The notes under the pieces are model-generated. The model worked only from the letters and a program-made list of their open reading frames with translations, was not told the origin of the DNA and did no database searches. From a virus: 38,574 bases of DNA. Position 1 is the first letter of the stretch; each line of letters starts with the position of its first letter. The translations under genes were made by a program, and so were the position numbers. Where the stretch lies: positions 1-38,574 of the IMG/VR virus record IMGVR_UViG_3300043411_000541, one strand, 5' to 3'. Of the stretch, positions 6,959 through 32,973 are shown piece after piece.

Positions 6959-6989
6959 TGCCTTACTTTCTAATGCCCTCTATGTATCT

Positions 6990-20991: not shown

Positions 20992-21030
20992 TAATAGATT
21001 TATAAACTGATTTCCCCACCTTATGGATAT

Positions 21031-21060
21031 AGATTACCATTAAACCCTATAGGTTGTCAA
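21031..21060 (-). promoter_or_regulatory. Sigma70 promoter for the glycosylation cassette
   Basis: Minus strand: perfect -35 TTGACA (21055-21060), 18-base spacer beginning ACCTATAGG, -10 TAATCT (21031-21036) preceded by TGG. This is the best -35 of the genome. The predicted leader is about 33 bases. Confidence 0.82.
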
Positions 21061-21061
21061 T

Positions 21062-21472
21062 TATATATAGTCTGTTATTTAATACCTAACGGTTGCCTGA
21101 AGACCGAAACTCACTCCCTACTAATAGGAAGTTTGAATAGTTCACAAAGGCGTGATTATATAACCAAGTAAATGGTGTGTGATTCAAAACATGTTTATTG
21201 TCACAGTGTAGCTACCACTGGGCGGATTCCTCATCCGTGCTTTCCGTTCATAGTCTATACCTAACGTATAGCCGTCAGACCGTTTGTAACCCTCCCTTGC
21301 CTTCTATGGCACGTTACGATCCTATTCCAAGGTGTACTGTGTTACCCGTACATATACCATAACTACTCCAGAATTAACTGGTAATCCCCCTCGGTCATAC
21401 CAACCAACTCTCTAATTCAAAACAATAAGGTGCACCCATATTGTAAACATGTCCTTGATTCAACACCAAGAT
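21062..21472 (-). ncRNA. Large structured RNA candidate B
   Basis: About 410 bases without a credible gene, starting just after promoter 21480-21508. A 9-bp long-range helix (21444-21452 with 21189-21197) encloses a multibranched core. Local helices: 21454-21457/21467-21470; 21422-21427/21439-21444; 21368-21371/21378-21381; 21286-21290/21341-21345 with 21295-21299/21328-21332 inside; 21255-21260/21266-21271; 21223-21227/21233-21237; 21204-21208/21216-21220; 21113-21120/21125-21132; 21090-21093/21103-21106. The 8-bp helix near the 3' end includes a G-U pair in the minus-strand RNA that would be a C-A mismatch on the plus strand, supporting the strand. It may belong with the large phage-associated RNAs such as ROOL or GOLLD in kind, but I cannot match it to any of them. 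Confidence 0.72.
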
Positions 21473-21479
21473 ACAATAT

Positions 21480-21508
21480 ATTATACCATAAAGACTATAG
21501 GCCGTCTA
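21480..21508 (-). promoter_or_regulatory. Sigma70-like promoter for RNA candidate B
   Basis: Minus strand: -35 TAGACG (21503-21508), 17-base spacer beginning GCCTATAG, extended -10 TGGTATAAT (hexamer 21480-21485). The predicted start is near 21473, immediately before the structured stretch and far from any gene start. Confidence 0.8.
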
Positions 21509-21514
21509 ATTCTC

Positions 21515-21660
21515 TTTAATCTGGACGCTGATTAGCCCCGTACTTCCTCACTGTCAACGGTATTTGCGTAACTACAGGCTAGGCGGTCTTATATACGTAA
21601 CTCAACCACCGCTTTTTCATCAGACCAGCGTTGTGAGTGATTTGCTGTCGCCCAGATTGA
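21515..21660 (-). ncRNA. Structured RNA candidate A
   Basis: A 145-base folded domain. The strand 21518-21530 pairs in two coaxial pieces, with 21652-21658 (7 bp) and with 21626-21631 (6 bp). Inside are 21583-21587/21608-21612 (5 bp) and 21538-21541/21557-21560 (4 bp). It lies between a small membrane-protein gene and the promoter of RNA B. It could be a separate RNA, a 3' structural element of the upstream mRNA, or an upstream domain of RNA B. The strand is not decided by the pairs seen, and minus is inferred from the neighbours. Confidence 0.55.
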
Positions 21661-21666
21661 AAAGAA

Positions 21667-21804
21667 CTACTCAATATTAATAAATAAAAGAACAATAAAC
21701 ACTAACCAGAAGTTCCAACCAAATAACAAACAGATCAACAAAGCAATTAGTATCTTTGGTACTAAAGCCACAAACAAAACTATTAAGCTAACTATTATTT
21801 CCAT
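21667..21804 (-). CDS. Small hydrophobic membrane protein
   Basis: A 45-residue protein, almost all hydrophobic, with two possible membrane segments: L-I-V-L-F-V-A-L-V near the start, and F-G-W-N-F-W-L-V-F-I-V-L-L-F near the end. Its ATG is read out of frame from the last codons of the small-terminase gene (17-base overlap), which suggests translational coupling. It could be a small membrane effector or holin-like peptide; nothing specific can be claimed. The ATG-to-stop frame is clean and continuous with the operon. Confidence 0.5.
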   Translation of the reverse strand: MEIIVSLIVLFVALVPKILIALLICLLFGWNFWLVFIVLLFINIE

Positions 21805-27328: not shown

Positions 27329-27368
27329 AATATAACTCTACTCAAATACAAAATTACTGGTATGAATA

Positions 27369-27529
27369 ACTCGCCTTCGTGTGCCACGAGTTTCCGACAT
27401 TTAGTTGGCTCTGGGTTACCTAGTAGGTAGAGATTTTATCTCTTTATATTGGTACTAAACCCTTAGAAGAGGTTCCGCTTCACCCTAGTTTAGACCTCCA
27501 CTCTTATCAAGGAGCTTCGCCAGTTGATA
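27369..27529 (-). ncRNA. Structured RNA candidate C
   Basis: About 160 bases of chained helices between two early genes. From high to low coordinates: a 6-bp stem 27524-27529/27505-27510; a 9-bp stem with one bulged base, 27488-27496/27451-27460, which contains a 4-bp stem 27466-27469/27478-27481; a 6-bp stem 27429-27434/27438-27443 with a 3-base loop; a small stem 27417-27420/27426-27429; and a stem 27369-27373/27387-27391. All are Watson-Crick pairs, so the strand cannot be decided from pairing; minus is assumed from the surrounding operon. No long open frame exists here. Confidence 0.65.
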
Positions 27530-27588
27530 TGCCTTCTTACACTCTTTTCGGTACATACCAGTAATTCTATATTCAAATTGTTAATGTA

Positions 27589-27936
27589 CTACTCAACCCT
27601 ATCACCACCCAATAATCTAACACTAGAGCCTCTCCTTCGTTTTGTCCCCTTATCGCTTCTAATCTTTCTAGTCCTCTTTGTTATAACTCCACTATTCGTT
27701 TTCAAATTTCCAAACAACACTCTATTAAATAAACTTGCAAACCATAATCTCTGTCCCATCATTAGTAAATCAAACCTTCTCATAATCATTCTAAATCCAA
27801 ATACCTTTGCTGTATCTATTCTTTCAGTTGTTACCCCTTTAATCTTCATTTGGTTTAACTTCTTGTTGTACTCGTACTTTTGGTTTGAGTACTCCCTAAT
27901 CTTTCCTAAGTACTGTTTTAGTGATTTTGTATTCAT
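27589..27936 (-). CDS. Hypothetical basic protein
   Basis: A 115-residue, strongly basic protein (N-Q-K-Y-E-Y-N-K-K-L-N-Q-M-K, then I-T-K-R-T-R-K-I-R-S-D-K-G-T-K-R-R-R-G near the end), with a short hydrophobic stretch (F-R-M-I-M-R-R-F-D-L-L-M-M-G). Probably nucleic-acid-binding. It is coupled to the upstream membrane protein by a one-base stop-start overlap. Confidence 0.6.
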   Translation of the reverse strand: MNTKSLKQYLGKIREYSNQKYEYNKKLNQMKIKGVTTERIDTAKVFGFRMIMRRFDLLMMGQRLWFASLFNRVLFGNLKTNSGVITKRTRKIRSDKGTKRRRGSSVRLLGGDRVE

Positions 27937-30683: not shown

Positions 30684-31064
30684 CTAACTTAATTTATCTT
30701 TTACCCAATTTATAAACTTCTCCATATAATCCTTATAAAACACCATTGCTTCTTCTTCGGTTGGTTTTCTGTTTAACTGTTGTTGCTGTAAAACATAGAT
30801 AACACCCTTTAATCTTTTAGATGGTGATTTAAACTCAGTAAACCCATCATTTTCAGGCATATCCTTTAATAACTTGTCCATATCAACATTAATACTTTCA
30901 GGATTTGATTCTTCAGTAATAACAACTAAAGCAAGGTTACCCCTGTTGCGATCAATTTCCGCTATTTCCTCACTGCTTAACTCTACCAAAGTATCTAAAG
31001 TCAAAGAAACAGAATTATCACTTCTCCTGGAGTATCTTTTTAATTCTAAAGTAAGTGTTTTCAT
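30684..31064 (-). CDS. Hypothetical protein coupled to the ERF recombinase
   Basis: A 126-residue protein with a beta-rich N-terminus (L-T-L-E-L-K-R-Y, V-S-L-T-L-D-T-L) and a helical C-terminus (A-M-V-F-Y-K-D-Y-M-E-K-F-I). It overlaps the ERF gene by one base (stop-start), so the two are probably co-translated and may act together in recombination or DNA binding. No family is recognised. Confidence 0.55.
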   Translation of the reverse strand: MKTLTLELKRYSRRSDNSVSLTLDTLVELSSEEIAEIDRNRGNLALVVITEESNPESINVDMDKLLKDMPENDGFTEFKSPSKRLKGVIYVLQQQQLNRKPTEEEAMVFYKDYMEKFINWVKDKLS

Positions 31065-31678
31065 TACTGTAATTCTGCTAAGTATTTATTAACATCTACG
31101 AACCTAATCTTATCAAAACTTTCCAACCCCTTTTTCTCTAGCCATTGGTCAGGTAGCATCTTCTGAGTTACAAGTCTTTCAATTAAAGCCACTTGCTTTT
31201 CTGTAGCGTAAACATAAGTGCCTGGTGGGTTCTCACTCCCTTTTGATATTCCAATCGATTCTGGGGTGCTTGTAGCCCGTTTAGAGGCCTCTTTCTTCCT
31301 ATTCATTGCACCCTCTCCGTCATCATCAGTCGCCATCATTCCTAACATACTTTGTAATCCGTATCTTCTGGCATAAGTAATGGCACTTCCTTGAGCCTGT
31401 GGATCGTTTGGTTTAGCATTTACTATCCTTGTTTTACCCATAAACCATTCTCCGCTTTCGTGCATTAAAATAGTTTGTACAAAATCTCCCATTACTGGCT
31501 GTAATATAGAAATTCCACTACCATTTAAGGCTTCAACACACGCCTCTAAAATAGAATTGATATCTGCATAGCTACTGTGAAAGAATGGATTTGCACTATC
31601 CTTTGAGGCAACTTTCATTTCTTTCTGTGCCTGTAGCATAGCCGTAGCAATGTTCTTTATTTCCCTACTTGTTCTCAT
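31064..31678 (-). CDS. ERF-family single-strand annealing protein
   Basis: A 204-residue protein. It starts with the typical I-A-T-A-M-L-Q-A-Q-K-E-M (residues 9-20), followed by A-N-P-F-F-H-S-S-Y-A-D-I-N-S-I-L (about 27-42), G-I-S-I-L-Q-P-V and the Q-A-Q-G-S-A-I-T-Y-A-R-R-Y-G-L-Q-S-M-L core (about 94-112), ending at A-T-D-D-D-G. This is the ERF superfamily annealing domain. A less conserved C-terminal region follows. It anneals complementary single strands in phage recombination and genome circularisation. The NinG-like protein would process the resulting junctions. Confidence 0.9.
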   Translation of the reverse strand: MRTSREIKNIATAMLQAQKEMKVASKDSANPFFHSSYADINSILEACVEALNGSGISILQPVMGDFVQTILMHESGEWFMGKTRIVNAKPNDPQAQGSAITYARRYGLQSMLGMMATDDDGEGAMNRKKEASKRATSTPESIGISKGSENPPGTYVYATEKQVALIERLVTQKMLPDQWLEKKGLESFDKIRFVDVNKYLAELQ

Positions 31679-31689
31679 ACTTTTTAAAC

Positions 31690-31893
31690 CTAAATTTAAA
31701 TGTTTTATATACTAATCCATACCAACAGAGCAATATCATTACTCCGCAAGCAGGAATCAATATACAAATTGAAAGCGGGGCTGGAATCCCGAACAGTTTA
31801 CTCTAACAGTCGTTGCTAAGGATTTGAACCTTATACAAACGAAAGATACCATATCTTGTTTTCCCTTAAACTACTTTCGCCTCAAAGAGCAAC
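31690..31893 (-). ncRNA. Structured RNA candidate D, tRNA-like
   Basis: A gene-free interval between 31679 and 31937. A TAGTTGC/GCAACGA stem (31889-31895/31810-31816, one mismatch) closes a domain. Beside its 3' strand is a perfect T-arm-like hairpin with 7-base loop TTCAAAT (31817-31833). The 5' part forms a second stem GCGAAAG/CTTTCGT (31874-31880/31839-31845), enclosing a GTTT/AAAC hairpin with D-loop-like AAGGGA (31858-31871) and an AGATA/TATCT hairpin with 3-base loop (31844-31856, competing by one base with the stem). A normal anticodon loop is missing. Further 3', a CGGG/CCCG hairpin follows. A terminal G-U pair exists only in the minus RNA. It is therefore not an ordinary tRNA. Confidence 0.6.
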
Positions 31894-31896
31894 TAC

Positions 31897-31925
31897 ATAT
31901 TACCACATCACCAATACCACACAAG
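31897..31925 (-). promoter_or_regulatory. Promoter for RNA candidate D
   Basis: Minus strand: -35 CTTGTG (31920-31925), 17-base spacer, -10 TGGTAATAT (hexamer 31897-31902). TATAGGT lies just upstream. The predicted start is within a few bases of the GTTGC arm of the RNA. Confidence 0.6.
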
Positions 31926-31937
31926 ACCTATAAAGAT

Positions 31938-32216
31938 TTAATTAAAATCATAAGGTTCAACGTCTAAATTATGTCTTACCCAACCTAGTAACATTTCTTT
32001 TCTTTCCTCTCTAGTAGTTCTAGCAAAGAAAGGAATTCCCATATATTTATAATCTCGTTCTGGTTCAGTTATACTGTAAACAAATATCCCTTCTTCGCTT
32101 CTCTTAATTGAACCAGTTAATTTCTCTAATAGTTCATTCCAACCTTTTGATTCTTCAAAGCTAACAATCTCGGTATCCTTAACTATATTTCTTCTTACTA
32201 CTGTGAATAAAGCCAT
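31938..32216 (-). CDS. Hypothetical early protein
   Basis: A 92-residue protein with a mixed alpha/beta pattern (W-N-E-L-L-E-K-L-T-G-S, then V-Y-S-I-T-E-P-E-R-D-Y-K-Y-M). The C-terminal E-R-K-E-M-L-L-G-W-V-R-H-N-L is helical. No family is recognised. The leader at 32217-32299 is AT-rich and contains TATAGGCC and TAATATAT elements typical of this genome's promoters. Confidence 0.5.
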   Translation of the reverse strand: MALFTVVRRNIVKDTEIVSFEESKGWNELLEKLTGSIKRSEEGIFVYSITEPERDYKYMGIPFFARTTREERKEMLLGWVRHNLDVEPYDFN

Positions 32217-32257
32217 ATTTTTATTAATTAATTTATGTTAATTACATAGTATCAAAT

Positions 32258-32290
32258 ATTTTATATATTACAATAGCAATTTGGGCCTAT
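32258..32290 (-). promoter_or_regulatory. Possible promoter upstream of 31938-32216
   Basis: Minus strand: TTATAGGCCC followed at about 15 bases by TTGTAATATATAAAAT. It contains the inverted form of the CCTATAG element, but the -35/-10 assignment is ambiguous. Confidence 0.4.
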
Positions 32291-32299
32291 AACAATATT

Positions 32300-32653
32300 C
32301 TAAGATTTCTTCTCTTGCTTCTTCCCAATATACTCTCTTTGCCCATTCTCAAGGCTTAATTCGTTGGAAATATCTATATAACTAATCCAACCCAAAACGT
32401 TTGTATAATATTCTTCTCCCGTTTCATCACCCATTTTAACCCTTGCCTTTATTTGATTGTCTAATAAATTCCTAACTATCTTTACACAGTCCTTTATTCC
32501 TTGCTCGTACATTTCGTTTGGCTTGGTTTTTCCATATAGATCACGGTGAGCCGAGTTTATACAGTCCTTGCATTTAGACAGGTACTTTCCCCTTTTATTC
32601 TTCATGAACCTATTCTCGTTCTTTTCTTGTTTACAAAATTTGCAGGTTATCAT
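32300..32653 (-). CDS. Zinc-finger early protein
   Basis: A 117-residue protein with an N-terminal zinc site (C-K-F-C at 4-7, C-K-D-C at 28-31), then helical and basic (M-Y-E-Q-G-I-K-D-C-V-K-I-V-R-N-L-L-D). The two C-x-x-C pairs with a basic spacer resemble the N-terminal half of phage HNH/zinc-ribbon proteins, but the HNH residues are missing. It overlaps the upstream gene by 4 bases. Confidence 0.6.
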   Translation of the reverse strand: MITCKFCKQEKNENRFMKNKRGKYLSKCKDCINSAHRDLYGKTKPNEMYEQGIKDCVKIVRNLLDNQIKARVKMGDETGEEYYTNVLGWISYIDISNELSLENGQREYIGKKQEKKS

Positions 32654-32973
32654 AAGTTTGACCAGTCTGAACTAAATTTATTACTTTTACCCTTTTCTGA
32701 GGCTATCTTTAAGCCATAATTATCAATCTGCTGTATATTTTCTCTCATATACTTCAAAATCACGTTTGTTTTCAAGCTTTTAATTTGCCCTGAAACTTGC
32801 TCAAAGACTAATCTATAAAGCGACCATAGTTTAAAAGGCTCTTTTTGTATTCCCGACCTTACAAGTCTTCCATTCAAGTAAAAGAAATCACCATCTTTAA
32901 CCAACACTCCCTGTCCAATCAAGTACATAAGATTACCATTTGTTAGCAATCCGACATCTGTTTTGTATAACAT
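32650..32973 (-). CDS. Hypothetical protein coupled to the replication initiator
   Basis: A 107-residue protein with a beta-rich first half (G-N-L-M-Y-L-I-G-Q-G-V-L-V, F-F-Y-L-N-G-R-L-V) and a helical second half (Y-R-L-V-F-E-Q-V-S-G-Q-I-K). It starts one base after the initiator-like gene and ends in an overlap with the zinc protein. It could assist helicase loading, but no motif shows this. Confidence 0.5.
   Translation of the reverse strand: MLYKTDVGLLTNGNLMYLIGQGVLVKDGDFFYLNGRLVRSGIQKEPFKLWSLYRLVFEQVSGQIKSLKTNVILKYMRENIQQIDNYGLKIASEKGKSNKFSSDWSNL

Follow-up and report, generated by a model that had tools for sequence, protein, structure and literature searches.

Locus and gene context

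The sequence analysed here, hereafter the window, comprises all 38,574 bases of the IMG/VR record IMGVR_UViG_3300043411_000541. Protein searches point to a tailed phage with a P22-like portal, terminase, major head protein and ERF annealing protein, and the listed genes of the window are coded on the minus strand. On this strand a 259-nt gap (31679-31937), the fourth longest among the 13 gaps of at least 60 nt in the window, separates a 92-aa ORF from the ERF recombinase gene downstream, and within this gap lies an element composed of tRNA-like parts (Table 1). As the initial annotation had anticipated, ARAGORN run on all 38,574 bases reported neither a tRNA nor a tmRNA; the element stands alone, with no tRNA elsewhere in the window. 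Together with the Rfam searches this rules out a canonical tRNA, a tmRNA and other Rfam families, and the tRNA covariance model RF00005 did not match the element even at E <= 10.

Table 1. Positions of the tRNA-like parts, the hairpins and the downstream gene (window coordinates)
Feature	Position	Strand	Remarks
Acceptor-like 5' strand TAGTTGC	31889..31895	-	6/7 pairs with 31816-31810; total span 86 nt
15-nt insertion TCTTTGAGGCGAAAG, junction of acceptor strand and D arm	31874..31888	-	possible 4-bp hairpin CTTT..AAAG; pairing probability about zero in the free fold
T8-A9-like dinucleotide TA and D arm GTTT-AAGGGA-AAAC	31858..31873	-	D arm proper 31871-31858
Hairpin AAGATA-TGG-TATCTT in the place of the anticodon arm	31843..31857	-	6-bp stem, 3-nt loop TGG; pair probabilities 0.70-0.93
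T arm TAAGG-TTCAAAT-CCTTA	31817..31833	-	pair probabilities 0.91-0.99; sole T arm in the window
Acceptor-like 3' strand GCAACGA	31810..31816	-	directly 3' of the T arm; followed by CTG, no CCA
Weak hairpin CGGG-ATTCCAGC-CCCG	31776..31791	-	4 bp, about -5.5 kcal/mol
Long imperfect hairpin in the ERF gene leader	31704..31768	-	-29 kcal/mol, z -6.81; 0/200 shuffles fold as well
ERF-family single-strand annealing protein gene	31064..31678	-	downstream of the element; PF04404 E 7.8e-26, phrog_2324 E 2.3e-42

Other stretches of the minus strand also attracted attention. A short hydrophobic reading frame at 31665-31800, with no AUG near its start, was seen by eye to overlap the long hairpin and the ERF start. 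The 796-nt gap at 20992-21787 contains no listed gene (whole-gap z -1.33) and carries a copy of a promoter-like motif at 21479. The 261-nt intergenic stretch at 27330-27590, with a closing stem of about 25 bp and z -3.57, is likely another structured RNA; a group I intron or other Rfam ribozyme was rejected there, the Rfam search giving no match at E <= 10.

Order and anatomy of the tRNA-like parts

Read from 31895 on the minus strand, the parts follow one another as acceptor strand, 15-nt insertion, TA, D arm, hairpin, linker, T arm and acceptor strand. The initial annotation had listed a T-arm hairpin with the loop TTCAAAT, an acceptor-like stem and a D-loop-like hairpin, and all three are present: the T arm combines a perfect 5-bp stem with the TTCRANN loop of canonical tRNAs, and the core acceptor pairing GTTGC/GCAAC extends to TAGTTGC/GCAACGA with six of seven pairs. 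Its further statement that these parts come in an order unable to build a normal tRNA was not borne out, as they succeed one another just as in a tRNA; the element differs in lacking the 7-nt anticodon loop with U33, in the place of which stands the 3-nt loop. The D arm, the sole match to the strict D-arm pattern on either strand of the window, keeps A14, R15, G18, G19 and A21 and lies 40 nt from the T arm, as in real tRNAs. The acceptor stem, by comparison with a tRNA, does not adjoin position 8: its partner strand is found 15 nt further upstream, and the sequence next to position 8, GCGAAAG, forms two of seven pairs with the acceptor 3' strand (counted by eye).

All four stems of the cloverleaf are able to pair, and the changes are confined to the loops and the junction. 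In the sequence of its parts the element is a tRNA; it departs from one in having three bases where the anticodon loop should be and extra nucleotides inserted between acceptor strand and D arm, and it is unable to decode a codon. The absent CCA is no objection, since a relative carries a real tRNA-Thr without an encoded CCA. A tRNA mimic or a decayed tRNA, which the initial annotation had offered beside a possible recruiting structure for RNase P or elongation factors, proved to be the right pair of readings: a D arm and a T arm as far apart as in tRNAs support a putative descent from a tRNA, and phages carry anticodon-less tRNA-like RNAs such as T4 RNAC.

Temperate phages copy the T arm and acceptor strand of tRNA genes, and the element offers this very portion. 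It might accordingly be an attP core that serves integration by matching the 3' part of a host tRNA letter for letter, but this explanation is largely refuted and highly improbable. The pattern AGGTTCAAATCCTTNGCAACG had no match in genome_contigs (84,980 species), so that no host or attB tRNA was found, a PHROGs scan covering 20 of the 62 listed genes of the window revealed no integrase, and the D arm would be left unexplained.

Frequency of the arms in shuffled and phage sequences

No single part is remarkable, given its chance frequency. The T arm alone is expected 0.39 times per shuffled window (present in 35 of 100 shuffles), the T arm with acceptor 0.08 times (8 of 100 shuffles) and D-arm-like motifs alone 3.0 times. 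With the span set to 84-89, T arm and acceptor occurred together in 36 of 1000 shuffles, and the phage loci compared gave 10 such matches, namely four class-II tRNA genes, four S16-type RNAs (see below) and two others. The combination of a D arm and, 36-70 nt further on, a T arm was found once in the window and in one of 2000 dinucleotide shuffles, a figure that is optimistic since the D-arm and T-arm patterns were written after the element had already been seen. Looser versions of these patterns, applied to 1,327,209 bases of phage sequence (overlapping loci included), matched nothing but the element and two real tRNAs, tRNA-Thr in L002 and tRNA-Met in L109; they recovered two of the four distinct ARAGORN tRNAs in the loci compared and are specific more than sensitive, as tRNA-Asn in L107 and tRNA-Arg in L074 escaped them. 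The resemblance of the element to a tRNA exceeds chance, and this excess, like the parts themselves, their order and their spacing, was observed directly.

Folding of the region and neighbouring hairpins

On its own, the tRNA-like part (87 nt) barely folds better than its shuffles (z -0.94), and the predicted fold, at -16.9, surpasses the cloverleaf, at -10.4, by 6.5 kcal/mol in stability. In the free fold the pairing probability of the D arm is low (0.02), and GCAACGA prefers to pair with TCGTTTGT immediately 5' of the T arm, giving an alternative 12-bp hairpin (z -3.06) as long as the acceptor and T stems of a tRNA together. The initial annotation had placed a strong GC hairpin after the element; the GC hairpin found there is the weak one of Table 1, and the strong hairpin is AT-rich, lies further downstream and is separate from the tRNA-like part. 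Judged by the z values of the three structures, the whole-region z of -3.0 comes mostly from this long hairpin.

The long hairpin, by far the strongest structure, could itself be the functional feature of a structured ERF leader, for example in RNA processing or in protecting the mRNA, the tRNA resemblance being a product of chance. The frequency of the single parts in shuffles, also of T arm and acceptor at the span of 84-89, agrees with such an explanation. We nevertheless consider it unlikely, as the joint pair of D arm and T arm arose in one of 2000 shuffles and occurred nowhere outside tRNAs in the other phage loci compared.

Searches for a promoter and for homologues

A dedicated promoter placing the transcript start at the acceptor stem, as initially annotated, was not recovered: a sigma-70-type scan of 31000-32700 detected none there, and the promoter-like motif TATGGTATAATA has no copy nearby. 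Three places on the minus strand of the window match this motif exactly, at 6989, 10596 and 21479, and it is common to the phage and two relatives (copies in L002, L003, L012, L013 and L014); it rests on these exact copies and the relatives, since the 11 matches obtained when two mismatches are allowed do not exceed the chance expectation (mean 9.8).

We searched for the same element in other phages, as the initial annotation had proposed, and found no homologue. Using blastn, none was detected in 50,697 phage records beyond short T-arm matches, and the exact element core had no match in viral contigs. A model of the element gave no credible match in 17 other viral records (one at E 1.85) and no homologue over 48 loci, where the next matches after the element itself, with E 0.36 to 2.6, all lay in or across phage tRNA or tRNA-like genes, in loci added for their tRNA-like content. 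In G024 and G026, which carry relatives of ERF, the preceding genes lie close to the ERF gene and leave no comparable gap. Scans using ERF or the 92-aa ORF as a single protein retrieved no relatives; the capsid protein, the replication protein and also a 71-aa protein did retrieve some, yet these contained no copy of the element. Host assignment through the epimerase gene yielded no relative in genome_contigs.

Kinship with a 190-nt element of G002 and G026, which like the present element has GAGGCGAA and a GGTTCRA loop, was rejected, as neither blastn nor the model gave a match. This RNA-like element (L014:13229-13417 and L113:354-542) is closed by about 20 bp, is 99.5% identical between G002 and G026 and, by eye, has a class-II tRNA-like 5' part and a GGTTCGA loop. 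The relative G002 also contains a 456-nt noncoding stretch with z -5.6 and no Rfam match (L012:385-840); its record (41,217 bp) is probably complete, given the 98-bp terminal direct repeat at the end of L014 and the start of L012. In G005, the tRNA model gave a T-arm-bearing tRNA-like stretch on the minus strand (L111:1501-1564) a score of 17.1 bits, which does not reach the cut-off.

The lack of conservation and of a covariance-model score, the acceptor mismatch and the absence of a stable fold would all suit a decaying tRNA gene, in which a phage tRNA lost its anticodon loop, gained the 15-nt insertion and has no present role. Two indels account for most of the difference from a cloverleaf, and relatives gain and lose tRNA genes: in L002 a tRNA-Thr precedes the terminase gene, a position that holds no tRNA in the window. 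Decay has to be set against the four stems that can still pair, the invariant D-arm and T-arm bases that were kept and the restriction of the changes to loops and junction. A long decay is disfavoured, since stems and invariant bases would also have gone, and a recent decay of a tRNA gene is possible; we regard decay as a serious, if somewhat doubtful, alternative, close behind the retained RNA of the T4 RNAC kind discussed below.

Anticodon-less RNAs of similar plan in other phages

Phage tRNA-like RNAs without anticodons have long been known from T4, in which rnaC and rnaD are annotated beside tRNA-Arg. Like the element, T4 RNAC (species 1 RNA, 139 nt) is phage-encoded and has a perfect T arm (CCGGG-TTCGAAT-CCCGG), an acceptor-like strand after it and no recognised anticodon arm. 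Unlike the element, RNAC and RNAD (species 2 RNA, 119 nt) lie beside tRNA-Arg in a tRNA cluster and have a different body, with no sequence similarity found. The transcripts of both are proven according to PMC9697503, which describes them as late RNAs confirmed by Northern blot and of unknown function. Their roles are likewise called unknown in PMC3014915, PMC12685909 reports an evolved phage with a mutated rnaD homologue, and the reference list of PMC11143913 names a 1978 catalogue of T-even phage tRNA-like molecules. A further tRNA-like gene outside translation is the Bacillus cereus pseudo-tRNA tRNAOther, described in PMC3399842, the deletion of which has a phenotype; it belongs to a bacterium and not to a phage.

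A permissive blastn search with the element (E <= 10) matched seven records over 19-29 nt each, and two groups of these matches led to conserved tRNA-like RNAs. In both, the element matches the T arm of unannotated tRNA-like RNAs adjoining tRNA genes, in Salmonella phages S16 and UTK0003, where the RNA lies just after tRNA-Arg, and in Providencia phage PSTCR5. The match in Pectobacterium phage POP12 was inside a tail fibre gene and was dropped.

The S16-type RNA occurs in T4-like and jumbo phages (Salmonella S16, Citrobacter CF1, Klebsiella JD18 and N1M2, Serratia 2050HW). It shares with the element an acceptor-like helix, a body without anticodon arm and a T arm, with spans of 85, 85, 86 and 88 in four of the five records compared against 86 for the element, and the Salmonella S16 RNA has TAGTTGC and a 19-nt T-arm match in common with it. 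The element thus fits a plan of acceptor and T arm at a span of 85-88 without anticodon arm, a similar plan being found in the shuffles at the frequency given above for spans of 84-89. Five S16-type copies align with 78% mean identity, and their acceptor strands differ yet pair (AGTAGAA/TTCTACT, ATCGAGA/TCTCGAT, TTCGGGA/TCCCGAT, CCGGGAA/TTTCCGT); for the S16 acceptor strand itself no partner beyond five of seven pairs was found. The conserved body TTAAACTTAGTGAGGAATTCGA sets these RNAs apart from the element. In a search of the window with the S16-type covariance model R1 (filters off, E <= 10), 13 background matches were obtained and the element did not rise above them; the match at 31765-31814 (9.6 bits) merely touches its 3' end. 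R1 is mainly a sequence test, since its automatic structure omitted the acceptor helix. As this model fails to recognise it, the element does not belong to the S16-type family.

The PSTCR5-type RNA, found in Providencia, Proteus and Salmonella phages, has a T arm identical in letters to that of the element (TAAGG-TTCAAAT-CCTTA) and differs from it in having a second T arm, in ending in ACCA and in following tRNA-Leu and tRNA-Ser. The S16-type RNA, the PSTCR5-type RNA and T4 RNAC are kin of the element in plan, not in family.

Proposed nature of the element

We tentatively favour the view that the element derives from a tRNA gene and has been retained as a small tRNA-like RNA without anticodon, similar in general kind to T4 RNAC. 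This reading comes slightly ahead of decay because the changes lie in loops and junction, the four stems can pair and the invariant D-arm and T-arm bases are kept. It is opposed by the lack of a homologue, the absence of a corresponding gap beside the ERF relatives of G024 and G026, the weak fold, the missing covariance-model match, the lack of a recognised promoter and the lone position, whereas T4 RNAC and the S16-type RNAs lie in tRNA arrays. If the element is an RNA of the RNAC kind, it would be transcribed together with the minus-strand genes, and its T arm, stacked on the acceptor-like helix, could be recognised by the host enzymes that mature tRNAs. RNase P might then act at the 5' side, followed by 3' trimming and possibly CCA addition, so that a stable tRNA-like RNA of about 86-90 nt would be excised ahead of the ERF message. 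Such an RNA may act by occupying tRNA-binding factors, or the element may merely be a processing site. That it represents a new lineage, namely a phage anticodon-less tRNA-like RNA outside tRNA clusters, fused to the leader of a recombination gene, excised by host tRNA enzymes and serving to decoy factors that bind tRNAs or defences that attack them, appears quite unlikely.

Anticodon-less tRNA-like RNAs escape standard tRNA finders, and the search from the element exposed two conserved, mostly unannotated groups of them. At E <= 1 the S16-type RNA matched 89 phage records, of which 12 cover 80% of the query and the weakest are short, chance-like matches; among the matches listed, most have no annotation there. 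The PSTCR5-type RNA matched 21 phage records at the same threshold, one of them under an annotated tRNA-Arg. With these two groups, the old question of the role of RNAC and RNAD would become testable by comparison.

A conserved and mostly unannotated anticodon-less tRNA-like RNA was located at L121:341-429, L124:599-684, L125:507-592, L126:503-590 and L127:488-573; it contains GGAATTCGACGG, which we take to recall the 5' motif of tmRNA.
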